Assembly: GCF_014202505.1 (NCBI RefSeq) | Contig: NZ_JACHGW010000003.1 | Coordinates: 682,001-746,000 of the forward strand | Origin: Armatimonas rosea | GTDB taxonomy: Bacteria > Armatimonadota > Armatimonadia > Armatimonadales > Armatimonadaceae | DNA: 64,000 bases | Reading direction: 5' to 3' | In this document: positions 13,605-36,078 of the stretch, piece by piece | How positions within the stretch are numbered: the stretch's first letter is position 1 | Layout of the letters: each line of letters opens with the position of its first letter | Made by a program: the position numbers and the translations under genes | Notes under the pieces: model-generated | The model's input: the letters and a program-made list of their open reading frames with translations, nothing else | Databases searched by the model: none | What the model was told of the DNA's origin: nothing

Positions 13605-14388
13605 GATCAGTCCTCGACAGAAGTGAAGCCAGCTGGCAGTTTAGCCTGTGGCTGGGTTTCATGGCGATTATATCCGCTTTTGGCAGAAAACCGGTAAGGT
13701 AGAGGTCACCGAGGAGGTCGAGAAGCTTATGCCGTGCCAGCTCGTTGTCAAAGCGCAGGGCGGGCTCGTAGCGATCGGGGTAGACAATCACCGCGTTGTC
13801 CAGCGAGCCGCCCTTAGCCAGGCCGGCATCGAGGAGCTTTTGCACTTCCTCAATAAACCCAAAGGTCCGAGCTGGCGCGATCTCACGGGCGTAGTCTCCC
13901 TCGCTGGTGGGGGCAGGGGGGGCAAAGCGTGCGACTTGTGTCCCGACCAGCGCGTGCTCGAAGGCGATCGCGCAGGTGACCGTGAGGTGCTCGGCGGGGT
14001 AGCAGGCGATAAAGGCTCCTCCGCGACCCGTCACAATAACTGGCTCCGTAAGCTCCCGGAGCACGAGCGGGCTCTGGGGGAGCACCTCTGCCCAGCCTGC
14101 GGCGCTGCCATCGAGGATGGGGAGCTCGGGGCCATCGACCGTGATCTTCAGGTCGGTGATTCCGCGCCCCGCGCAGGCGGAGAGCAGGTGCTCCACGGTG
14201 GAGAGGCGTGCGCCGCCGCTTCCCAAGACGGTGCAGCGGAGGGTCTCGACCACGTTTTCGGCGCGCGCAGGAATCGTCCCCTGCGCCGTCTCAAAGACAA
14301 TGCCGGAGCCGGGGGGGAGGGCGGTGAGAGTCGCGGTGCAGGGCTGGCCGGTGTGGATGCCAACCCCGGAGAGTGTCGCGTAGGTCAT
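13597..14388 (-). CDS. lpxC: UDP-3-O-acyl-N-acetylglucosamine deacetylase LpxC
   Basis: A 263-residue zinc amidase that carries out the committed step of lipid A synthesis. Zinc-ligand motifs are visible: the His of LSTVEHLLSACAG and the His/Asp pair of ARHKLLDLLGDL. The catalytic-domain TFGFIEEVQ and LDGSAAGW motifs are also present. It is about 40 residues shorter than E. coli LpxC. It leads the minus-strand lpxC-fabZ-lpxA-lpxB operon. A TATCAT hexamer seven bases upstream of the ATG, with no Shine-Dalgarno in between, suggests a leaderless operon transcript. Confidence 0.96.
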   Translation of the reverse strand: MTYATLSGVGIHTGQPCTATLTALPPGSGIVFETAQGTIPARAENVVETLRCTVLGSGGARLSTVEHLLSACAGRGITDLKITVDGPELPILDGSAAGWAEVLPQSPLVLRELTEPVIVTGRGGAFIACYPAEHLTVTCAIAFEHALVGTQVARFAPPAPTSEGDYAREIAPARTFGFIEEVQKLLDAGLAKGGSLDNAVIVYPDRYEPALRFDNELARHKLLDLLGDLYLTGFLPKADIIAMKPSHRLNCQLASLLSRTDLE

Positions 14389-14395
14389 GGCCTAG

Positions 14396-14401
14396 ATGAT
14401 A
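14396..14401 (-). promoter_or_regulatory. TATCAT -10-like hexamer 7 nt before lpxC
   Basis: On the minus strand TATCAT-N7-ATG precedes lpxC within the 37-bp intergenic space shared with the divergent gene at 14426. No ribosome-binding site fits. A TACAAT on the plus strand at 14400-14405 could serve the divergent gene. Confidence 0.5.
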
Positions 14402-14425
14402 CAATATTCCCTAGCGAAATTTCCT

Positions 14426-14821
14426 ATGAGCCGCATCGTTCATCGTCAGCCTATCTGGACCTGGAGCCTTGTCTTCCTCTCCACCCTCCTGCTCACCCCG
14501 AGCACGGCGGCGGTGGTGCTGGCGGCGCTGCGTCAGGCCAATGTGGCGATGGTGCCAAGCGAGTCGGCGGTCTCTCCCCGGCGGGCGACCACCGAAGAGG
14601 AAGAGGCGATCAAGGCCGCCGCCCAGAGCGGGCGCCTGAAGGTCATTCGCCTAGAGCCCGCCTCCGAGCAGAACGCTCTGGCGATCCTCGCCCCAACCCG
14701 CGCCACGGTCGCGCTCCCGGAGCTCTGCGCTGCCCGGCAGCTCTATCCCACCCTCACAACCACCCTCCGTTCTGCGGAGCGACTCTCCTATGGCTCTCGT
14801 GCACCGCCGCACGCCGCTTAG
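14426..14821 (+). CDS. Small single-pass membrane protein of unknown function
   Basis: A 131-residue protein starting at the ATG at 14426 (an upstream in-frame ATG at 14396 would run into the lpxC promoter). An N-terminal hydrophobic segment, TWSLVFLSTLLLTPSTAAVV, follows a basic MSRIVHRQPI. This gives one membrane anchor or a signal peptide. The remainder (about 90 residues) is alanine- and glutamate-rich and has no recognised domain. Codon use is typical of the neighbouring genes (strong G/C third position), supporting a real gene. It is divergent from lpxC and ends just before the palindromic repeat that precedes secA. Confidence 0.62.
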   Translation: MSRIVHRQPIWTWSLVFLSTLLLTPSTAAVVLAALRQANVAMVPSESAVSPRRATTEEEEAIKAAAQSGRLKVIRLEPASEQNALAILAPTRATVALPELCAARQLYPTLTTTLRSAERLSYGSRAPPHAA

Positions 14822-14875
14822 AACTCTTCTTCGTTGATTGTGTCCCGGATGGTAAACGTCGGGCAACCTCGACGG

Positions 14876-14985
14876 TAAACGTCAGGCTATGGGGCCTTCG
14901 GCCGCCTCCTCGTCCCTCGTCGGTACAAGATTTATCCGAGCGAAGCGAGGCGGCGGAGGCACGACGCCCCATAGCCCCACGTTTA
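14876..14985. repeat. Palindromic intergenic repeat, family A copy 1
   Basis: GGCTATGGGGC at 14885-14895 is matched by its exact complement at 14966-14976. Outside these, TAAACGT (14876-14882) pairs with ACGTTTA (14979-14985). The interior shares CCTCGTCGGTA and the GGCGGAGG..ACGACGCCCC end with the copy at 60016-60136. It lies between the small membrane protein gene and secA. A separate small stem, CGTCG..CGACG, precedes it at about 14857-14874. The element could form a long hairpin. Confidence 0.8.
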
Positions 14986-15027
14986 TCGTGCGGGAACGTG
15001 AATTTAAGTGAGAACCACAGAATAACC

Positions 15028-18000
15028 ATGGATTTCCTACGAAAACTTTTTGATAACAACGAGCGTGATGTCCGCAAGTACCGCAAGGTCGTGGAGAAGA
15101 TCAACGCGATCGAGCCGCAGTTTAAGGCGCTAACCGATGAGCAGCTCAAGGCCAAGACCGACGAGTTCCGCCAGCGGGTGAAGGACGCCGTCGGCGATGA
15201 GAGCGAGTACACCGACCCCAAGATGCTCCGCGCCGCCTACGACAAGGCGCTCGATAGCATCCTGGTCGAGGCGTTTGCCGCCTGCCGCGAGGCGGGCTGG
15301 CGTGCGCTGGGGATGCGCCACTTCGATGTCCAGCTCATCGGGGGCATGGTCCAGCACGATGGCCGTATCTCCGAGCTACGCACCGGCGAGGGCAAGACCC
15401 TGACCTCGACCCTGGCGACCTACCTCAACGCCATCGCGGGCAAGGGAGTGCACCTGGTCACGGCCAACGACTACCTGGTCAAGCGCGATGCCATCTGGAT
15501 GGGGCCGGTCTACGCGGCGCTGGGGATGACGGTCGGGATTCTGCAGGGGCACTCCCCGGAGACGGGCGAGGGCGGTGGGACCTTTATCTACGACCCCAGC
15601 TACGAAGACCCGTCGGTGGATGGCCTCGATGAGCGCTTTAAGTACGCCCGCCAGACCTACGACCGCCGCGATGCCTATGCCTGCGATATCCTCTACGCCA
15701 CCAGCGCCGAGCTGGGCTTTGACTACCTCCGCGACAACATGGCCCCCACCCTGGAGCATGTTGTCCAGCACCGTGGTCACTGGTTCGCCATTATCGACGA
15801 GTGCGACTCCAACTTAATCGACGAGGCCCGGACCCCGCTGATTATCTCCGGCACGGCCCAGCGCTCGTCGGAGCTCTACTATGTCTTCTCGAGCATCATG
15901 CCCCAGCTTGAGAAGGGCGAGGCCAAGAAAGACAAGTACGACACCACCACCGACGAAAAAGACTACACCGTGGACGAGAAGGCCAAGAACGCCACCTTCA
16001 CCGAGCGGGGCATGGAAAAGGTCGAAGAGATCCTCCGCAAGATGGGCCACGATATCCAGGATATCTCGTCGATGGAGAACCTGGAGTACATGCAGCACGC
16101 GGTCGCGGCTCTGAAGGCCCATGCGGTCTTTGAGCTCGATATCGACTACGTGGTCAAGCCCAACCAGGAGGGCAAGCCCGAGATCGTGATTGTCGATGAG
16201 TCCACGGGGCGCCTGATGTTTGGCCGCCGCTGGTCCGATGGCCTGCACCAGGCGGTCGAGGCCAAGGAGGGGATCAAGATCGAGAACGAGCAGCAGACCC
16301 TCGCGACCATCACGATCCAGAACTACTTCCGCCTCTACGCCAAGCTCGCGGGCATGACCGGAACCGCCAAGACCGAAGAGGACGAGTTCCGCAAGATCTA
16401 CGCGCTCGATGTGGTGCAGGTGCCTACCAACAAGCCCATGCAGCGCAAAGATGTCGCCGACATGATCTACAAGAGCCTGGAGGCCAAGCTGCGCGGGATC
16501 GCCAGCGAGGTGCTCACGGTCCACTGTCGCCAGCAACCGCTCCTCGTGGGGACTCGCTCTATTGAGATGAGCGAGCGGGTCAGCTCCCGCCTGACCTTCC
16601 AGGCACTGGAGCTCCTCTCCGCCATCACGATCCTGCGCGCACGCTTGCTAGAGAAGCGCAAGGAGCTCGGGGAAGAGAAGTACGGCCAGTTCACCGCAGT
16701 GCTCAACCGGCGTGTCGACGACCTCAACCTGCCGATGCTCGCGCCGCTCGCCAAGGAGCTGGGCATGGGCACGAAGATGACCGACGAGGCCCAGGTCGCG
16801 GCGTTTGCGAGCCTACTGGGGCTGGACAAGGCCGATGAGAACGCGGTCAAGAACCTGGTCGCACTCCATGGCAAGTCCGCCACCGAGGTCTCCACGGAGC
16901 TCGTGACCGCCCAGCTCAAGGCACTGCGCGAGGCGCTGGAGTACGGGATTCCCCACAATGTCCTCAATGCCAAGTACCACGAGCAAGAGGCACGCATCAT
17001 CGCCGAGGCGGGCCGCCGTGGCGCGGTGACGATCGCGACCAACATGGCGGGCCGTGGTGTCGATATTCTCCTGGGAGGCTCGCACTACAAAGAGGTCGAG
17101 GGGCAGGAAGAGAAGGAGCGCGACTTCTCCTACCGTCGTGGTGGGCGCCGTGCGGGGATCGCCCATGTGGTGACCGGGCGCGACCAGGCCGCCAGCGGGG
17201 TCGAGGGAACGCACTCCCTCACCGAGGAAGAGAACCTGGACCTGGCCAAAGAGCGCGAGGAAGTGCGCGCACGCGGTGGGCTCTACATCCTGGGCACCGA
17301 GCGCCACGAGTCGCGGCGTATCGACAACCAGCTCCGGGGCCGCTCCGGGCGCCAGGGCGATCCGGGCACCAGTAAGTTCCATGTCTCGCTAGAGGACTAC
17401 CTCTGGCGCGCGTTTGGCGAGCGCAACAGCCTCCAGCTCGCCGCGCTCAAGGCGTGGGAAGAGGACCAGGCGGTCGATATGCCGATCCTCTCCAAGATGA
17501 TCGAGCGCGCCCAGAAGAAGGTCGAGCAGCACAACTTCGACTCCCGAAAGCATGTTCTGGAGTACGACGATGTGATGAATGTCCAGCGTGAGGTGATCTA
17601 CGGCGAGCGCCGCAAGCTCCTACAGGGGGCCGAGCTGCGCGACACGCTCACCAGCTACCTCCATGAGACCGTGGACACGATGGTCGAGCTCAACTGCCCC
17701 GATGGGATTCCGTCGGAGGAGTGGGACAAGGAGAAGCTCTACCACGACCTCAACGAGCAGTTCCCGCTGGCCAACTTCGCCAGCTACGACGAGCTCAAGG
17801 ACCTGACCAAGGCCGAGCTCGCCCAGAAGCTGCACGACCTCGCCGACGAAGCCTACGATGCTAAGGAGGAAGAGGTGGGGCCGGAGCTGATGCGCGAGAT
17901 CGAGCGCCATCTCCTGCGCCAGACTATCGACCAGACCTGGATCCAGCACCTGCAGGCGATGGACTACCTCCGCGAGGGAATCGGGCTGCGCGGCTATGCG

Positions 18001-18387
18001 CAAGTCGATCCTCTGGTCGCCTACAAGAAAGAGGCGATGGAGGTCTTCTCGCAGATGCAGGCCGGGCTGGTGGGCGACACGGTGCGCAATGTCTTTGTGG
18101 CCCAGCTCCAGCAGGACATGCCGGACTTCGAGCAGGAGCAAGATATCTTCAACCTGCTCCAGCAGTACGGCGGCGAGTCCGTGCCGATGGAGCTTGGCGG
18201 CGAGGGCGGCCCCGTCATGGAGAACCCGATCGTCCCCGAGGTCAATGCGCTCCTCGCGGCGGCGGCGGAGGCCGCCCAGTCCACGGCTCCCCGCAAGATC
18301 GACCCGAACGACCCGTGTCCCTGTGGCAGCGGCAAGAAGTACAAGCAGTGCCACCGGGGCAAGCCGCTTCCCGCCGATGTGGCGTAG
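15028..18387 (+). CDS. secA: Preprotein translocase ATPase SecA (with large inserts)
   Basis: A 1119-residue motor of the Sec pathway that drives unfolded proteins through SecYEG. The ATG at 15028 gives the family start MDFLRKLFDNNERD. It has Walker A RTGEGKT (about residue 120), DECDSNLIDEARTPLIISG (Walker B region, with Cys where Val is usual), MTGTAKTEEDEF, GRRGAVTIATNMAGRG, RRIDNQLRGRSGRQGDPG, and the C-terminal zinc SEC-C motif PCPCGSGKKYKQCH. Bacterial SecA is usually 830-950 residues. Most of the extra length is an insert of about 115 residues between LVGTRSIEMSERV (505-518) and GIPHNVLNAK (640-649). A smaller extension follows ILLGGSHYKE. Confidence 0.97.
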   Translation: MDFLRKLFDNNERDVRKYRKVVEKINAIEPQFKALTDEQLKAKTDEFRQRVKDAVGDESEYTDPKMLRAAYDKALDSILVEAFAACREAGWRALGMRHFDVQLIGGMVQHDGRISELRTGEGKTLTSTLATYLNAIAGKGVHLVTANDYLVKRDAIWMGPVYAALGMTVGILQGHSPETGEGGGTFIYDPSYEDPSVDGLDERFKYARQTYDRRDAYACDILYATSAELGFDYLRDNMAPTLEHVVQHRGHWFAIIDECDSNLIDEARTPLIISGTAQRSSELYYVFSSIMPQLEKGEAKKDKYDTTTDEKDYTVDEKAKNATFTERGMEKVEEILRKMGHDIQDISSMENLEYMQHAVAALKAHAVFELDIDYVVKPNQEGKPEIVIVDESTGRLMFGRRWSDGLHQAVEAKEGIKIENEQQTLATITIQNYFRLYAKLAGMTGTAKTEEDEFRKIYALDVVQVPTNKPMQRKDVADMIYKSLEAKLRGIASEVLTVHCRQQPLLVGTRSIEMSERVSSRLTFQALELLSAITILRARLLEKRKELGEEKYGQFTAVLNRRVDDLNLPMLAPLAKELGMGTKMTDEAQVAAFASLLGLDKADENAVKNLVALHGKSATEVSTELVTAQLKALREALEYGIPHNVLNAKYHEQEARIIAEAGRRGAVTIATNMAGRGVDILLGGSHYKEVEGQEEKERDFSYRRGGRRAGIAHVVTGRDQAASGVEGTHSLTEEENLDLAKEREEVRARGGLYILGTERHESRRIDNQLRGRSGRQGDPGTSKFHVSLEDYLWRAFGERNSLQLAALKAWEEDQAVDMPILSKMIERAQKKVEQHNFDSRKHVLEYDDVMNVQREVIYGERRKLLQGAELRDTLTSYLHETVDTMVELNCPDGIPSEEWDKEKLYHDLNEQFPLANFASYDELKDLTKAELAQKLHDLADEAYDAKEEEVGPELMREIERHLLRQTIDQTWIQHLQAMDYLREGIGLRGYAQVDPLVAYKKEAMEVFSQMQAGLVGDTVRNVFVAQLQQDMPDFEQEQDIFNLLQQYGGESVPMELGGEGGPVMENPIVPEVNALLAAAAEAAQSTAPRKIDPNDPCPCGSGKKYKQCHRGKPLPADVA

Positions 18388-29226: not shown

Positions 29227-29256
29227 ATTATAGGTCATCTAGTGCCATCTCGTCAA
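29227..29256 (-). promoter_or_regulatory. Promoter of pilC
   Basis: On the minus strand TTGACG (29251-29256) and TATAAT (29227-29232) are separated by 18 bp, a near-consensus housekeeping promoter. The start of transcription would be about 80 nt before pilC. The -35 box overlaps the stop codon of the upstream gene. Confidence 0.75.
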
Positions 29257-30377
29257 TTTTTCCGCCAAGGGAGCTGAATAGGCGTTCGTTTTCCGTCTTC
29301 ATCGGCTGGTCCGGCACTGTAGAGCTCGTAGCCGTTCTCCGTTCTTTCGTAGCGGAAGGGCTGACGCGTGAAGGGATCGAGCGCCCACTCGGCGAGCCGG
29401 AGCGGCTCTAGTCTATCGGGCAGTTTCTCCCACTCCCACTTGTACTTACGGACCGCGGCATAGCAGTAGAGGAGCTGGCACTGGATTCTGTTCTTCACCA
29501 GGTTCTCCACGGCTCGGGGGTAGGCAGGTGTGATGGTATCGAGTAGCGCCGCTTCCAGAGTGCCTGCGGGGAGCTTAGGCTCGGGCGGCAGGATGTGGGG
29601 AGCGAGGAGATAGGCCTGGGCGCGTGCCTGGTGCTGCTGTGCGCCTTGGAGAAAGGCACCTAGGACACGCTTTCTCTCGGTAGGGTTGTTCTGGAGCGCC
29701 GAGAACTGGCGCTGGAGCTGGTTGAGTGTCGGGTCCTCAGAGTCAGTGAAGAGCTCGCGGAAGATCGCGGGGTCACTTGTCTCCAGGGTGGGAAGGATGC
29801 TCTCCACAAAGCGCTGCTCCATGGCGATAGCCTTTGAGGCACTGCCCTGGTCTTGCTCCTGGTGCTCGCGCAGGATAGCCTGGACCCGGTCGCAGTCACG
29901 CGGGGTGAGCTGCTCTAGGTGCGTCTTGACACGGGTCAGCAAGACCGAGTCGATCGCGGCTCCGACAAGGCCACCAATCAGCACCTGCGCCTTGGGAGCA
30001 CTCCCCAGACGCAGGCCCTGTGCAAAGCTCACCAGCGCGGCGGCCGCTCGCCCCTCGGAAAAGAGCACATGCATCTCGGCCGAGAGCAAGCGGGCCAGAT
30101 CACGCAGGCCGGTGTACTCGGGAAAGGTGGTTGAGGCTGTTAGTTCCCGAACTGGCGACTCTAGTGGCTTGAGGGCGGAGGTCTCGATCAGGGCGCGCGC
30201 CTGACGCACCGGCGGATCGGCGAGGGCACGGCGACGGCTAGAGAGGGTGTTTTGCTGCTGCGCATCGGCCCAGAGTGCGCTGGTCTTCAGGAGCTCTCCG
30301 GCGCGGACAAGGTCTTCGTAGCCGTTTCTTCCCGTCGGCTTGGGGAAGAGCTGAGAGAGGATACTTTTTTCTTGCAC
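29253..30377 (-). CDS. Protein of unknown function with a pseudopilin-like C-terminal motif
   Basis: A 374-residue, largely helical protein starting at a GTG (30377). No signal peptide or membrane segment is seen. Most of it has no recognised family, for example LLSAEMHVLFSEGRAAAALV and LVGAAIDSVLLTRVKTHLEQ. The last 60 residues (KWEWEKLPDRLEPL, DPFTRQPFRYE, GYELYSAGPADEDG) match the pattern DPFxGxPxxYxxxxxGYxLYSxGPDxxDDGG. That pattern is known from the C-termini of GspG-type pseudopilins and planctomycete proteins. It precedes pilC on the same strand, so a role near the pilus-like machine is possible but unproven. Confidence 0.75.
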   Translation of the reverse strand: MQEKSILSQLFPKPTGRNGYEDLVRAGELLKTSALWADAQQQNTLSSRRRALADPPVRQARALIETSALKPLESPVRELTASTTFPEYTGLRDLARLLSAEMHVLFSEGRAAAALVSFAQGLRLGSAPKAQVLIGGLVGAAIDSVLLTRVKTHLEQLTPRDCDRVQAILREHQEQDQGSASKAIAMEQRFVESILPTLETSDPAIFRELFTDSEDPTLNQLQRQFSALQNNPTERKRVLGAFLQGAQQHQARAQAYLLAPHILPPEPKLPAGTLEAALLDTITPAYPRAVENLVKNRIQCQLLYCYAAVRKYKWEWEKLPDRLEPLRLAEWALDPFTRQPFRYERTENGYELYSAGPADEDGKRTPIQLPWRKN

Positions 30378-30532: not shown

Positions 30533-30566
30533 AAAACCCTCCGCTTCCTCAAGCGGAGGGTTTTTC
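30533..30566. terminator. Bidirectional terminator shared by tRNA-Pro and lpxD
   Basis: AAACCCTCCGCTT and AAGCGGAGGGTTT form a 13-bp stem around CCTC, with TTTTTC on the plus side and TTTTCC on the minus side. The lpxD stop codon (30549-30551) lies in the loop region, so the last lpxD codons form one arm of the hairpin. Confidence 0.9.
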
Positions 30567-31613
30567 TTTGTCTTTCTCTAGCTCGGCGAGACGCTTCTCT
30601 AGGTCGCGAAGCTTCTTGACCATGTCTGGGAGCCGGTGGGCCGCTGCCTGCTGGCGCATCATCTCCTTGTGGGGCCGCGCCGGGAAGCCGGAGACAAACG
30701 AGCCCTCGGGGATATCACCGATCACGCCGCCACGGCCCGCGATCACCGAGCGCGCCCCGATCTTGACGTGCTCGCCCGCGCCAGACTGGCCCGCAAAGAC
30801 CGAGTAGTCGCCCACTTGGACACCGCCGGCAAGCGCGGTCTGGGCGACGAGCAGGCAGTGGTTGCCTACCTGGCAGTTGTGCGCCACATGGACCATGTTG
30901 TCGAGCTTGGTCCCATTGCCGATTCGGGTCGTGCCGGTCTTGGCGCGGTCGATCGTGCAGTTCGCTCCCATCTCCACATCGTCGCCGATCGAGACCGTGC
31001 CAATCTGCGGGACCTTGAGGTGCTGGCCACCGACAAGCATGTACCCAAACCCATCGGCACCAATGACGGTCCCCGAGTGGATGATATTGCGCTTGCCCAT
31101 CTTGGTCCCGTGGAGAATCGTCACATTGGGAAAGATAATGGTATCGTCGCCAATCTCCACATCGTTGCCGATATAGCAGAGCGGGTGGATCGTGACGTTC
31201 TTACCCAGCCGGACATTCTCCCCGAGCACGCACTGTGCCCCCAAGGAGACGAGCTCCCCGTACTCAAGATCGCTTCCGATCACGGCGGTGGGATGGATAC
31301 CACGGGGGGCGTAGTGCTCCGGCGCGAAGAGGTCCAGGAGCTGAGCAAACGCCAAACGAGGGTTCTCGACCCCGATCATGACCTTGGTGTCGCCGTTGCT
31401 AATGGCCGACTGGGGGGCCAGAATCGCCGAGGCGAGAGACTTTCGCGCTGTCTCTAGGAAGCGGGGGCTCTCCGCAAAGGTGATATCCCCGGAGCGTGCC
31501 TCTTCTATCGAGGCGATCCCACAGATCATGGTCGCGGGGTCGCCAAAAACCTGGCCTTGCACGACCGCTGCTATCTCGGCCACCGTCCGGAGGCGCTGCT
31601 CTTTGCCCATCAT
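30549..31613 (-). CDS. lpxD: UDP-3-O-(3-hydroxyacyl)glucosamine N-acyltransferase LpxD
   Basis: A 354-residue lipid A enzyme adding the second acyl chain. The N-terminal uridine-binding domain (about 1-105) ends with NPRLAFAQLLDLFAPEHY. A left-handed beta-helix of hexapeptide repeats follows (IHPTAVIGSDLEYGELVSLG onward). The catalytic histidine is in NMVHVAHNCQVGNHCLL. The tail PDMVKKLRDLEKRLAELEKD is a short coiled coil. It is the last gene of the bamA-ompH-lipoprotein-lpxD block. Its start codon shares a TAATG overlap with the lipoprotein gene. Its stop lies inside the terminator shared with tRNA-Pro. Confidence 0.97.
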   Translation of the reverse strand: MMGKEQRLRTVAEIAAVVQGQVFGDPATMICGIASIEEARSGDITFAESPRFLETARKSLASAILAPQSAISNGDTKVMIGVENPRLAFAQLLDLFAPEHYAPRGIHPTAVIGSDLEYGELVSLGAQCVLGENVRLGKNVTIHPLCYIGNDVEIGDDTIIFPNVTILHGTKMGKRNIIHSGTVIGADGFGYMLVGGQHLKVPQIGTVSIGDDVEMGANCTIDRAKTGTTRIGNGTKLDNMVHVAHNCQVGNHCLLVAQTALAGGVQVGDYSVFAGQSGAGEHVKIGARSVIAGRGGVIGDIPEGSFVSGFPARPHKEMMRQQAAAHRLPDMVKKLRDLEKRLAELEKDKEKPSA

Positions 31614-32797
31614 TACAAACTCACCTTTATCCAGTTGGCAAACTCTCTGGTTCGATCCGGAACGCCGGGAAGGGGGGAGAAGGAGACGATGATCCCCCGA
31701 CGCTTGGCGATGTCCTCGACTTGAGCGCGTAGCTCGGCCACCAGAGCTTTTTGCTCGTTGTTTTCTCTTTTTGCGGGGCGACTCTCCACTACCTGGGGAG
31801 AGGACCCTCTCGGTCTCACAGGGAGGCCCGAGCTAGGGGGTGTGCCCGCGGCACGGCGTGTTGGGAGCTCCTCGGCCAAGAGAACGCGGTTGAGGCTCTC
31901 TTCTTGATCGAGGCGCAAGGAGAAGGTCTCGTCGCGGCTACGAAGCCCTTCAAGGCGCTGCTCCACCCGTTGTTTGATCTCACTCTCCCGCTCTTGGGCG
32001 CTCTGTAGGCGCTTTTGTTCCGCTTGAAGCTCCGCGCGTTTGATCGTGTCTTCAAGCTCTTGGCACAGTGTCTCTAGGGCATCGCGCGAGGCGGCGTAGA
32101 GGACACGGGGGTTGCGTGGTGCGACCCCGTTCTCCCAGGCAACACGTGCGCGCCGAACCCCGGTCAGGGAGTCCACCTGAATCTGGGCACGGAGAGGGAT
32201 GGCGCGGAGACGCTTGACCTCTTTTGCAACTTTCTCGGGCTCATCCGGGGCGAGGAGGGTATCGTTGGCCGGGCTGGCGAGGGCGCGCGAGATCTGAAAC
32301 TGGGTCTGGGCCAGCGAGAGATCGTCCTTAAGCCGTGCCACTTCCTCACTCACGGTCCGCATCGCCTCCTTGCGGTCGTCGTCGGCCTGGCTCCGCGCTT
32401 GCGGCCGCTCCTGATCCTCAAAGTAGGACTTGCTGATCTCCAAAAAACGGTCCTGTCGCTCGCGGAGGCGTGTGCCAAACTCCTGAATCCCCCGCTGGTT
32501 GGCCCGTGTGACCTCTGCACGCCCCTGGAGCCGCCGCCGCTGCGCCTGCTCCCAGCCCGCCGTCTGCGTCAGCACGAGCGGGACAAGCGCGGCAGGACGC
32601 ACGAGTGTGGTCAGCGGGACGGGCTGCCCTGCGGGGAGTGCGAGGAGGGCTTCTGTCCGAACATGGCTCTGGACAAGAGCCTCCAGGTCCACCGTTGCAT
32701 GAGTCGGGGCAGGCGTGGAGGAGGGGGTGGGTACAGACTTGCTACACCCACACACCCCTAGAGCAATACAAAGTGCTACACCAGGAACCCGCGTCAC
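31613..32797 (-). CDS. Coiled-coil lipoprotein of unknown function between ompH and lpxD
   Basis: A 394-residue protein. The GTG at 32797 is chosen because it yields a short lipoprotein signal (MTRVPGVALCIALGVCGC, lipidated Cys about residue 18). It also starts 11 nt after the ompH stop, whereas longer starts overlap ompH. After a Pro/Thr-rich linker the body is highly charged and predicted helical, rich in Glu, Arg and Gln (for example RLRERQDRFLEISKSYFEDQ and EQKRLQSAQERESEIKQRVE), like a long periplasmic coiled coil. The last 45 residues (KALVAELRAQVEDIAKRRGI, then SFSPLPGVPDRT) look like a small folded end. Its position suggests an envelope-assembly role. No family was recognised. Confidence 0.82.
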   Translation of the reverse strand: MTRVPGVALCIALGVCGCSKSVPTPSSTPAPTHATVDLEALVQSHVRTEALLALPAGQPVPLTTLVRPAALVPLVLTQTAGWEQAQRRRLQGRAEVTRANQRGIQEFGTRLRERQDRFLEISKSYFEDQERPQARSQADDDRKEAMRTVSEEVARLKDDLSLAQTQFQISRALASPANDTLLAPDEPEKVAKEVKRLRAIPLRAQIQVDSLTGVRRARVAWENGVAPRNPRVLYAASRDALETLCQELEDTIKRAELQAEQKRLQSAQERESEIKQRVEQRLEGLRSRDETFSLRLDQEESLNRVLLAEELPTRRAAGTPPSSGLPVRPRGSSPQVVESRPAKRENNEQKALVAELRAQVEDIAKRRGIIVSFSPLPGVPDRTREFANWIKVSL

Positions 32798-32807
32798 AGA
32801 GCGACGC

Positions 32808-33482
32808 CTACTTTTGGAGGAGCTTAACCACGTCCTCAGTGATGTCGGTCGCTGCATAGATCACGACATTGGCATTGAAGACAAGGGCCAGGCTCTTTTC
32901 CTGCGCCACTTTCTTCACTGCGTCCTTGACTGCTTTCTCCAGCTGGTTTTCAAAATCGGTGCCCTTCTCCGTGATACGCTTCTCGTACTCGGCCCCGATC
33001 TCATTGAGGAGCGGAATTCCCTCGTTTTGCAGGGTGTTGAGCCGCTCCAGCTCTTTCTTCTCATCGTCTTTGAGCTGGGCTTGCTGGCTGAGGCGGGTGA
33101 TGGTGCCCGCGCTCTGGTCTGCCTTCTTCTGGAGATCCGCGGCGCGCATCTTCTCCGCCGGGGTGGCCTTGTCGCCCTTTTCGTAGATCGCGGCGAGCTC
33201 ACCCATCTCCTGCTTGGTCAGAAAGATGGCATTGCCCTCTTTGAGCTTGGTAAAGATTCCCAGCATGCTACGCTTGAAGCTATCGAACTGGCCATCCAGG
33301 TCTTTTTTTAGCTTGGACTGCTTGGCGCACTCTTGAAAGTCAACAATGCCAAACTGCTGCTGGGCATGCGCGGGGGTGGGGACGAGGGCTGGCAGGCAGA
33401 CTCCTCCGAGAAGGGCCAGGGCAACCGGCAGGAGGGGCCGAAGGGTTCGAGTGGATCGCATGCGATATTGGAGAGAGGTCAT
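32808..33482 (-). CDS. ompH: Periplasmic chaperone OmpH/Skp family
   Basis: A 224-residue protein with a signal peptide (LLPVALALLGGVCLPALVPT, cut after AHA). The Skp/OmpH body follows: the first strand FGIVDFQECAKQSK, two long charged helices forming the tentacle hairpin (EKMRAADLQKKADQSAG, then QLKDDEKKELERLNTL), and the returning strand KSLALVFNANVVIYAATDIT near the C-terminus. Skp carries unfolded outer-membrane proteins to BAM. It lies 26 nt after bamA, as in many diderms, and the coiled-coil lipoprotein and lpxD follow. Confidence 0.92.
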   Translation of the reverse strand: MTSLQYRMRSTRTLRPLLPVALALLGGVCLPALVPTPAHAQQQFGIVDFQECAKQSKLKKDLDGQFDSFKRSMLGIFTKLKEGNAIFLTKQEMGELAAIYEKGDKATPAEKMRAADLQKKADQSAGTITRLSQQAQLKDDEKKELERLNTLQNEGIPLLNEIGAEYEKRITEKGTDFENQLEKAVKDAVKKVAQEKSLALVFNANVVIYAATDITEDVVKLLQK

Positions 33483-33508: not shown

Positions 33509-35392
33509 CTAAAATGCCTGGCCAATGGAGAAGTGGCTCCGACCGGCACCGTCCCCGAAGCCGTAGTCAAGACGGACAGGGCCGACGGGCGTGCGGACAC
33601 GGATGCCGACACCAAAGCTCGTCCTTGGGTGGAAGCCGGTCTGCTGCTGGAATCCGGCGATATTTTCCTGGTTGACCGTGGAAGCGCCCCATGCATGGCC
33701 CACATCGACAAAGAACACGCCCCCAAGCTGGTTGGTCTTGTCCAGCGGGATGCGCACCTCGTTGGAGAAGAGGAACATGTTGTTGCCCCAGAAGCGGTCA
33801 TCGAAGAAGCCACGGAGGTTGTCGGCGCCGCCCATGAAGAACTGCTCCGAGAAGGCGATATTGCCCGTGGCCGTTCCCACCATGAGGCGTGAGGCAAGCA
33901 CCCGCTTGCCCTCGCGCAGGTTCTCCTTGGAGCGCTCACCATTGAGGGACGTGTAGCGGCGGGCATCGAGGATGTACTTGACAAACCCACCGTTCTGGCT
34001 CCGGTCCTCCAGCAAGAGGCGGGGCTCGCCGGTCTGGCCGAACTTGGGGTTGAGGCTGGGCTTCTGGTAGTTGAAGCGGCTGTGCCCAAACTCGATACTG
34101 GGGGAGAGGTAGTAGCCACGGGTCGGGTCTTGGGCGTTGTCGGTGGGGTTGGAGATCACGCCAAAGGTCACTGCGGAGATGCGCCCGTCCTGAACCAGTG
34201 AGCCCCGAAGGTTGCGAATGTCGTCGTCGCTGAGGGCATCGTAGTTCTGCTGGAGGTTGTTGGCCTGGATCCCCTCCGCACGAAGCCCGGCGAAGGCGCG
34301 GGTGAAGCGGTCCGCGGTCAGAGGACGGGAGAGGTTAAAGCCCGCACCCTTGCGCTCCTCGTAGTACTGGTTGTTCGATGTATCATTGGTCAGGTTCGAC
34401 GAGAGAATGCGGTTGAAGCGAAACGCGAGGCGGTCGTAGAGGTTGATGCTGGCGCTGGTGTTGTTCTTGTCTACCCAGGGCTCGGTGAAGCCTAGCTCGT
34501 AGGAGTTGCGGGAGATGCCGCCCGCCACCGACCACTGCAGATCGAGCCCCTGGCCCTTGCCCCGGAAGTTCTGCTCGTTGAGGCTGACGGTTCCAATCAG
34601 GCGCTGGCGTGCCGAGTAGCCCACCGAGACCCCCACCTGGCCCGTGCGCTGCTCCTGCACCGCGAGGGTGACCTTGGTCTTGTCCAGGTCGCTGCCCGGC
34701 TCGGCGTTGGTGACCGCATCGACAAAGATATTGAGGCGCATCAGGCGGGAGAGGTCCTCTTGGAGCAGGCTCTCGTTGTAGGGATTGCCCACCTTGGTGC
34801 GTAGCTCGCGTGTCACCACGCTGCGGGCGGTCTTGATATTTCCCGTGACCTCAATCGACTCGACCACGGTCTCCAGGATGGGAATCGTGAGGGTGCGGGT
34901 CTTGGGGTCGAGCGAGACCTCGTCGATCACCACGAGTGCGCGGTAGCCCTGGCTCTGGTAGAAGCGGGGGATCTTGAGGACATCGCTGGAGAGGGTCTTC
35001 TGGTTGAGCACCTCGCCGGGCTTGGTCGCCATCAGCTTGAGGAGCTCATCGTTCTTGATGACCTTGTTGCCGGTAAAGGTGATGACATCGATCACCGGGT
35101 TCTCGGCAAGGTTGAAGATGAGGCGAATGCGCCGGTCGGGCAGCTCCTCGAAGCGCGCGGTGACTGTCGCGTAGAGCCCGGTGTCCAAGAGCGCTTTCTT
35201 AGCGTCCTCTAGGCCCTTGAAGGCAAAGGGCGAGCCAATCTTAAATACTTTATTGACCGCCAGTGTGGCGACAGTCTCGTTGGTTTTCTGTCGCCCCGTG
35301 AACTGAATCTCCGCGATGGGGCGGCTCTCCTGAGCACTTGCCACCACCGCGACACTCAGTGCGGCGACACTACATCCTAGCTTGAACCACAT
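33509..35392 (-). CDS. bamA: Outer membrane protein assembly factor BamA
   Basis: A 627-residue Omp85 protein. A signal peptide (CSVAALSVAVVASA) is followed by about three POTRA domains (IAEIQFTGRQKTNETVATLA; VIDVITFTGNKVIKNDELLK; VESIEVTGNIKTARSVVTRE). The 16-strand barrel starts near residue 260 (QVGVSVGYSARQRLIGTVSL). The chaperone-recognised C-terminal phenylalanine is present (HFSIGQAF). RGFFDDRFWG is the likely L6 RGF motif region. It is shorter than the five-POTRA E. coli protein. An AGGAG ribosome-binding site precedes ATG 35392. The ECF sigma gene ends 15 nt upstream, so the two are likely cotranscribed. Confidence 0.96.
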   Translation of the reverse strand: MWFKLGCSVAALSVAVVASAQESRPIAEIQFTGRQKTNETVATLAVNKVFKIGSPFAFKGLEDAKKALLDTGLYATVTARFEELPDRRIRLIFNLAENPVIDVITFTGNKVIKNDELLKLMATKPGEVLNQKTLSSDVLKIPRFYQSQGYRALVVIDEVSLDPKTRTLTIPILETVVESIEVTGNIKTARSVVTRELRTKVGNPYNESLLQEDLSRLMRLNIFVDAVTNAEPGSDLDKTKVTLAVQEQRTGQVGVSVGYSARQRLIGTVSLNEQNFRGKGQGLDLQWSVAGGISRNSYELGFTEPWVDKNNTSASINLYDRLAFRFNRILSSNLTNDTSNNQYYEERKGAGFNLSRPLTADRFTRAFAGLRAEGIQANNLQQNYDALSDDDIRNLRGSLVQDGRISAVTFGVISNPTDNAQDPTRGYYLSPSIEFGHSRFNYQKPSLNPKFGQTGEPRLLLEDRSQNGGFVKYILDARRYTSLNGERSKENLREGKRVLASRLMVGTATGNIAFSEQFFMGGADNLRGFFDDRFWGNNMFLFSNEVRIPLDKTNQLGGVFFVDVGHAWGASTVNQENIAGFQQQTGFHPRTSFGVGIRVRTPVGPVRLDYGFGDGAGRSHFSIGQAF

Positions 35393-35406: not shown

Positions 35407-36015
35407 CTAACCTTGTCCCTGACGGCCAAGCCACCCCCGGTAGTAGGGCTCCAGCCGCTGGCGTACTTTATTGCGGGCCCGGTGCAGGCGGGTTTTTACC
35501 GCGGGCACCGACAGGCCCAAAATGGCTGCGATCTCATCGTAGGGAAGGTCCTCCCAGAGGTCCAGGATCAGCACTTCCCGATACTCCATGGGCAGGGCAT
35601 CGACCGCCTCACGGATTTTTTGTCCAAACTCCGTCTCCAGCAAGAGCTTCTCTGGTGCATTGCGCCAGTCGGCGACCTCGTGGGTGAGCTCTCCGGAGTC
35701 GCTCTCTAGGTTGTCATCGAGCGAGTAGCCCTCACGCTCGCGCTGGCGGCCTTTTTGCTTGTACCAGTTCTTGCAGAGGTTACGGGCGATCTGGTAGAGC
35801 CAGGTGTAGACTTGCGCATCGCGGCGGAAGCCTCCCCAGGCTTTCCAGGCATTGGTGAAGGTATCTACCAGAAGGTCGTTTGCATCCTCCACGTTCTCGT
35901 TACCGATCATGCGTAGGATTAGGTTATAGAGACGGAGCTCGTATTTCTTTTGGATCTGCTCGAAAGTGAGATGACGATCATCTCCTTCTCGGGGTCGGCG
36001 CTCCGTACTACTCAC
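35407..36015 (-). CDS. ECF-type RNA polymerase sigma factor upstream of bamA
   Basis: About 202 residues from the GTG at 36015. A TTG at 36048 would add 11 residues but coincides with a TTGACA that may be a promoter box. Region 2 is YELRLYNLILRMIGN, then DLLVDTFTNAWKAW and VYTWLYQIARNLCKNWY. Region 4 is VDALPMEYREVLILDLWEDL, then LGLSVPAVKTRLHRARNKVR. This is the RpoE-like ECF layout. No anti-sigma gene is adjacent. Being directly upstream of bamA-ompH-lpxD, it is a plausible regulator of envelope biogenesis, by analogy with sigma E control of bamA and skp in proteobacteria. Confidence 0.9.
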   Translation of the reverse strand: MSSTERRPREGDDRHLTFEQIQKKYELRLYNLILRMIGNENVEDANDLLVDTFTNAWKAWGGFRRDAQVYTWLYQIARNLCKNWYKQKGRQREREGYSLDDNLESDSGELTHEVADWRNAPEKLLLETEFGQKIREAVDALPMEYREVLILDLWEDLPYDEIAAILGLSVPAVKTRLHRARNKVRQRLEPYYRGWLGRQGQG

Positions 36016-36078
36016 AATGACACCAGGGTAGACAGTAAAGGCTGTCAAACGTTTCAGGGTTTTGCAACAAGTGGTGCA

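Follow-up and report, generated by a model that had tools for sequence, protein, structure and literature searches.

A predicted lipoprotein between ompH and lpxD in Armatimonadota, most likely a distant relative of OmpH/Skp

The ompH-lpxD interval of Armatimonas rosea

The window, a stretch of 64,000 nucleotides of Armatimonas rosea DNA (contig NZ_JACHGW010000003.1, positions 682,001 to 746,000), carries on its minus strand a block of genes in the order tamB, a sigma-70 family gene, bamA, ompH, a lipoprotein gene and lpxD. The identities of OmpH, LpxD, BamA and TamB are confirmed by Pfam. A preliminary description had placed a lipoprotein reading frame of 394 residues between ompH/skp and lpxD, tightly packed with both, and the frame is found there as described. 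The genes and features of interest are as follows.

33509..35392, minus strand: bamA, with Omp85 (E 1.3e-37) and three POTRA stretches in Pfam
32808..33482, minus strand: ompH/skp, the upstream neighbour (PF03938, E 1.8e-10)
31613..32797, minus strand: the lipoprotein gene, 394 aa, with a GTG start at 32797; orthologues found
32744..32797, minus strand: signal peptide (residues 1-17) and predicted lipidated Cys18, read from the sequence
32660..32701, minus strand: N-terminal module HATVDLEALVQSHV (residues 33-46), a family motif aligned to the first strand of OmpH
31847..32560, minus strand: long helical hairpin ('tentacle'), residues about 80-317, from a low-confidence model of the window protein and a confident model of its Pelosinus counterpart
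31616..31771, minus strand: C-terminal module (residues 343-394), which contains D381-x-T383 and aligns with the end of OmpH
30549..31613, minus strand: lpxD, the downstream neighbour (PF04613, E 4.9e-16)

The end of ompH (32808) and the GTG of the lipoprotein gene are ten bases apart, and the TAA stop of the latter (31615-31613) has one base in common with the lpxD ATG at 31613. An alternative ATG start at 32857 would yield a protein of 414 aa and an overlap with ompH of 50 bases. Either start is possible, and the lipobox (VCG, then Cys18 in the 394-aa numbering) is identical with both.

The sigma-70 family gene between tamB and bamA (35407-36048, minus strand) contains regions 2 and 4 and is probably ECF-like, to judge by its size. 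A relative of it is present in 37 of 58 fetched loci, with bamA visible in 46 of the 58. A sigma factor within the BAM block could be a regulator of that block. Elsewhere in the window, a SecA-like open reading frame of 1579 aa (13648-18387, plus strand) has a DEAD domain that begins only at residue 466 and spans 450 residues versus a 290-position profile; the frame has a long N-terminal extension or a wrong start, plus inserts. On the 3' side of lpxD, a 374-aa frame (29253-30377, minus strand) has no Pfam match at E<=0.001.

What does the lipoprotein resemble? Taken singly, the window protein matches no Pfam family at E<=1, PF03938 included, and a search of NCBIfam yields one weak match only, to TatB (E 0.34); neither search shows a domain of the BamB-E families. 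The two weak matches in the PDB are to ribosomal proteins (E 0.54 and 0.62), and a pattern scan of genome contigs with the window protein gave 105 pattern matches, none of which was confirmed. When the sequence was compared with 61 genomes of the phylum, it was found in its own genome, in a same-genus genome and as one 38-residue piece in a genome from another family of the phylum (G020). The same-genus orthologue is 54% identical and likewise lies between ompH and lpxD. As the G020 piece has this location too, the gene was then sought by synteny.

Position and distribution in Armatimonadota

lpxD and ompH were located in the 61 phylum genomes, and the stretches between them were fetched and read. 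Matches to both genes lie on one contig in 54 of the 61, and here the interval holds a long open reading frame in 47, a short one in four and nothing in three. The genes overlap or almost touch in many genomes. In two further genomes (G032 and G045) the long gene adjoins lpxD and the detected ompH is on another contig; in G025 it adjoins ompH, with lpxD elsewhere. The short frames are of 229-240 aa and do not have the family motifs. They come from three loci of one genus (L015, L030, L040) and from L038, show no lipobox by the rule used and no C-terminal D-x-T by eye, and are decayed forms or other genes.

A family alignment of 47 rows was assembled from the long proteins. It omits the near-identical L017 and L020 and the short frames L015, L030, L038 and L040, takes in L060 and L061, where ompH is on another contig, and keeps L046, though this row is without the N-terminal motif. 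The profile made from it matches 126 of 151 phylum genomes, training genomes included, a number that takes in some OmpH-only matches (G023, judged by position; G062, G106 and G122, judged by frame length). Matches occur in 109 of 130 good-quality genomes and in 86 of 101 genera. Of the 126 matched genomes, 46 come from the first 61. The remaining 80, minus the three that are OmpH-like by frame length and minus G061, whose match is a fragment covering 36 profile positions close to the beginning of a contig, leave 76 for a test of position. lpxD was detected in 73 of these; in 70 of the 76 the profile match immediately precedes lpxD in the same orientation, in a search that covered lpxD, and in the other six lpxD is on another contig (three) or none was detected (three). 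A constant place between ompH and lpxD, which the preliminary description had proposed as a check, is largely borne out by the 47 of 54 genomes, and the further genomes agree as far as lpxD is concerned. The same-genus orthologue, the synteny and the profile matches confirm that the gene is real and conserved, and more than a chance reading frame.

A named Armatimonadetes locus (L063) from the set of 80 named loci considered below also carries a family match (E 1e-21). Its OmpH match (E 2e-62) is the strongest by far among the 80 named loci listed, the next being 1e-33, which is in keeping with the phylum named in the preliminary description; the end motifs are absent from its protein by eye.

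Likeness to OmpH/Skp

The family has a simple plan. A Cys stands at the lipobox column in 41 of 47 rows, a count inflated by the choice of start codons with a preference for a lipobox, and the other six have no lipobox by the rule used; the same rule applied to OmpH, whose starts were not chosen in this way, finds a lipobox in five of 54 proteins. A linker with a median of 13 residues (range 6-69; 16 in the window protein) leads from the Cys to a conserved strand position within an N-terminal segment that reads approximately [YF]-V-D-L-x-x-L-x-x-x-H-P-x-W, with the H in 33 and the P in 39 of 47 rows. The window protein has the D-L-x-x-L-x-x-x-H part and does not have P-x-W; the segment is a strand in its low-confidence model. 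Two long predicted helical stretches follow, on either side of a Pro-rich turn (Pro in 42 of 47 rows), and the C-terminal module ends the protein with its D-x-T, of which the D is present in 42 rows and the T in 46 (of 47). The median length is 376 aa, versus 226 for the phylum's own OmpH. With the first 25 residues set aside the family is basic (median pI 9.4, n=47, 31 of them above 8), and the neighbouring OmpH is not (median pI 6.1, n=54, 14 above 8). Change has been fast: window and same-genus proteins are 54% identical, compared with 74% for OmpH and 78% for LpxD.

Coiled coils give false matches, so a match at the end modules is what matters. In profile-profile alignment a C-terminal stretch of 59 family columns falls on the C-terminus of OmpH (E 1e-5, probability 82%), and the C-terminal module by itself does so with P 3.7e-7 and a probability of 93%. 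Its score of 41.5 was reached in none of 200 column shuffles, the highest of which gave 16.5; reversed profiles used as decoys gave P 0.09 or worse, and five random half-samples all gave P 1.1e-5 or better. The N-terminal module falls at the expected place on the first strand of OmpH, with P 0.0095, which is weak alone, and with none of 200 shuffles as high. Lipoprotein profile matches at E<=1e-3 in the 80 named loci listed comprise 17 reading frames, four long proteins and 13 others, and all 13 others are OmpH-type proteins with an OmpH profile E of 1e-12 or better. In whole genomes the profile likewise detects the adjoining OmpH (4.5e-6 in G056, 5.0e-9 in G023).

Coiled-coil bias is strong. 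PF03938 matches one of the 47 rows at E<=0.1 (best 0.0036), and Duffy_binding and DUF2267 each match two (Duffy_binding reaching 0.0006); the scattered Pfam and NCBIfam matches of single rows were set aside as products of that bias. The same applies to the full-profile PDB matches, which include apolipoprotein A-I, a short tail fibre and parts of ATP synthase (best E 0.00032). With the C-terminal module as query, a complex I protein comes first in the PDB (E 0.018) and Skp 8gl8 second (E 0.024), neither of them significant.

Structure models add a picture of the arms. That of the window protein is poor (pLDDT 52.5, pTM 0.24); it shows, with low confidence, a strand followed by long helices and then by a helix, a strand and a final helix, and a fold search with it returns nothing or generic coils, and no Skp. 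The model of the long protein of Pelosinus is much better (pLDDT 86.7), with a strand at 16-20, helices at 31-138 and 143-265, a strand at 269-273, a short strand and a helix at 285-293. By VIA it superimposes on Skp 1sg2_A with Z 10.4 and rmsd 4.5 over 136 of 141 residues, and on 1u2m_C with Z 9.8 and rmsd 4.1 over 138 of 143 residues. These Skp scores tie with those of unrelated coiled coils, and a VIA Z under about 13 may reflect only a common arrangement for long helices. A Foldseek search with the Pelosinus model places SMC coiled coils first, with no match of any kind reaching E 0.001 and no Skp in the best 50.

Are there similar proteins outside the phylum? The 80 named loci are drawn from at least 591 stretches and say little on the spread of the long form. 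In the 79 listed besides L063, the lipoprotein profile matches a long protein in three, from Pelosinus fermentans, a Negativicute (8e-17), a Bacillota MAG (5e-10) and Ca. Eremiobacter (2e-10). All three proteins are encoded downstream of an ompH and upstream of lpxD, from which another short OmpH separates them, and those of Pelosinus and Eremiobacter have a lipobox by eye. PF03938 itself detects them, at 7.2e-6 (Pelosinus), 6.6e-4 (Bacillota) and 7.7e-4 (Eremiobacter), with 20.1-26.7 bits versus a curated cut-off of 32.4. In the Eremiobacter protein both end modules are recognised, each where expected (N 3.3e-4, C 1.1e-3). Among the named loci listed, a search with the N-terminal module ranks the Pelosinus (1.1e-4) and Eremiobacter long proteins first, and one with the C-terminal module returns the Eremiobacter protein together with OmpH-type proteins. 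The N-terminal module is not clearly present in the Bacillota (E 2) or Selenomonadaceae (E 260) long protein, and the C-terminal module is not matched in the Pelosinus, Bacillota or Selenomonadaceae proteins (E over 100). As Pelosinus matches the N-terminal module only and Bacillota neither clearly, the full-profile match of these two may lean on the coil, and the case for their kinship is in part one of coil, PF03938 match and gene location. The Selenomonadaceae locus (L099) has a similarly placed protein of 335 aa that the profile does not report. Both Bacillota loci also have a frame of 411-453 aa between bamA and the first ompH (L062, 2622-3857, plus strand; L064, 2371-3732, plus strand).

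These comparisons support a homology to OmpH/Skp, and the family has the C-terminal body segment of OmpH/Skp with its conserved D-x-T. Since the curated cut-off of PF03938 is not reached, the protein is best called a relative and not a curated member. The view that it has no known relatives can be given up, as it appears to be a diverged relative of the adjoining ompH; nor does its restriction to one phylum hold, as there are counterparts in Bacillota and Eremiobacter loci.

Possible function and known systems

The gene most likely encodes a distant lipid-anchored relative of OmpH/Skp that works like Skp, its position kept through most of the sampled phylum. More specifically, it would be a lipid-anchored, long-armed, diverged OmpH/Skp paralogue holding unfolded outer-membrane proteins for BamA, a reading to which a rough probability of 0.6 can be attached. 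Skp, in the passages of PMC9820271 that describe it, is a trimer with a body of beta-structure and helical tentacles that hold unfolded outer-membrane proteins. We infer that the lipoprotein also forms a trimer, binds clients and is located at a membrane. An OmpH/Skp paralogue would have become a lipoprotein and gained longer arms. Its body would trimerise as in Skp, beside the lipid-holding membrane and usually on a short linker, and the tentacles of this basic protein would extend through the periplasm and wrap unfolded outer-membrane proteins arriving from Sec. The wrapped clients would be kept foldable for BamA, a product of the same gene block. A periplasmic chaperone had been among the first suggestions, and this part of the proposal gains from the putative homology of the C-terminal module to OmpH/Skp, with which the N-terminal segment agrees. 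A role as a BAM accessory factor, also suggested, may overlap with the chaperone reading.

In which membrane would the lipid anchor lie? LolA (PF03548) was detected in none of the 19 nearest genomes, which leans to inner-membrane anchoring. It was detected in nine of the 61 genomes of the wider sample, so the inner membrane is a preference and not a finding; given these matches, and a LolA-like match under the cut-off and three Lnt-like open reading frames in the organism's own genome, we do not call Lol absent from the phylum. A search for BamD (PF13525) found none in the own genome. BamD is matched in 23 of the 61 sampled genomes, where many of the frames listed are long and are probably other repeat proteins.

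A bolder version can be considered, in which an inner-membrane-anchored Skp has arms that cross most of the periplasm and form a fixed Sec-to-BamA bridge, replacing soluble shuttles in diderms mostly without detectable Lol. If each residue adds 1.5 angstrom, arm length would come to about 160-185 angstrom in the Pelosinus model; for the low-confidence window model the estimate is at least about 140 angstrom. This version is speculative and rather doubtful. If true, the position shared by Armatimonadota, Eremiobacter and Negativicutes would make the gene part of an early outer-membrane gene block.

Alternatively, the protein might serve as an anchor subunit that forms mixed trimers with soluble OmpH and ties OmpH to a membrane, while itself binding clients only to a small extent. 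Body segments that appear homologous to those of OmpH, the close packing of the genes and the pairing with ompH maintained across the phylum are all consistent with this, as is the assembly of the Skp trimer via its body (in passages of PMC9820271). It leaves unexplained, however, why the arms are longer than those of OmpH, and in G032 and G045 the gene is beside lpxD and the detected ompH on another contig; such a role is tentative and on balance unlikely. Very long predicted helices and a predicted lipid anchor might also suit a passive spacer or tether across the periplasm, which would set the distance of BamA or of a membrane. A tether to the cell wall had in fact been proposed, but neither Pfam nor NCBIfam reveals a cell-wall-binding domain in the window protein, and the putative homology to a chaperone body, though compatible with a changed role, makes a spacer distinctly improbable. 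LpxD acts in the cytoplasm, so its shared position with the lipoprotein gene need not mean a shared step; a service to lipid A or LPS instead of outer-membrane proteins, for example as a basic holder tied to lipid A synthesis, is very improbable, even if the protein is basic and the gene stays with lpxD in G032 and G045, for in G025 it stays with ompH and lpxD is elsewhere. Finally, an unrelated coiled coil with a purely compositional likeness to OmpH would account for the strong coiled-coil bias, the full-profile matches to apolipoprotein A-I and others in the PDB and the single-row matches to unrelated Pfam families, but it can practically be dismissed, as the decisive match lies in a short C-terminal module and withstands reversed and shuffled decoys, and all 13 further profile matches in the named loci listed are OmpH-type proteins.

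How does the lipid-anchored chaperone reading compare with known systems? With OmpH/Skp (PF03938; Escherichia coli Skp, PDB 1SG2 and 1U2M) the family shares a C-terminal strand region, the D-x-T and the final helix and a position between bamA and lpxD, and probably also an N-terminal strand segment and helical arms in between. It differs in that OmpH/Skp is soluble and the family is a predicted lipoprotein (41 of 47 rows, with starts chosen in favour of a lipobox), and in its longer arms and its score below the Pfam cut-off. The long middle OmpH-type proteins of Negativicutes and relatives (Pelosinus L062, 313 aa; Selenomonadaceae L099, 335 aa) also lie between ompH and lpxD and have OmpH-like ends by eye, with a long hairpin in the Pelosinus model and a Pelosinus lipobox. 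They differ in the further short OmpH between the long protein and lpxD, and in Selenomonadaceae the lipobox is missing and the profile does not pick up the protein. Multiple Skp copies in such clusters have precedents: passages of PMC5007114 report up to three after BamA in diderm Firmicutes, and passages of PMC5491611 report that V. parvula has four Skp proteins, three encoded immediately downstream of bamA, and that all four were detected in the outer-membrane fraction. The V. parvula fractionation does not settle the location of the Armatimonadota protein.

BamB-BamE resemble the window protein as lipoproteins encoded near BamA, and differ in that Pfam gives the window protein no family match. 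The MlaD transenvelope bridge of V. parvula, as portrayed in parts of PMC10665443, offers the same idea of a long periplasm-spanning part in place of a shuttle and an outer-membrane lipoprotein; the proteins are unrelated and the comparison is an analogy only. In the open-licence literature searched, no title or abstract opening points to an Armatimonadota Skp that is lipidated or long. Excerpts of a 2026 review state that Terrabacteria BamA works without lipoprotein subunits and that soluble factors may exist (PMC13067283), and passages of another (PMC11784454), which make no mention of Armatimonadota, that neither outer-membrane lipoproteins nor a Lol pathway take part when diderm Terrabacteria build their outer membrane. 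The protein may thus be a membrane-tied helper for outer-membrane building in bacteria that are considered to have no lipoprotein helpers of this kind, and it offers a testable link to the question of outer-membrane assembly in Terrabacteria, where the usual lipoproteins are missing. Are the missing lipoprotein parts replaced or dispensable, as passages of the Veillonella study ask (PMC10665443)? A conserved, putatively Skp-type lipoprotein in the BAM-lipid A block of a phylum of the same kingdom (Bacillati) provides a concrete gene for this question.
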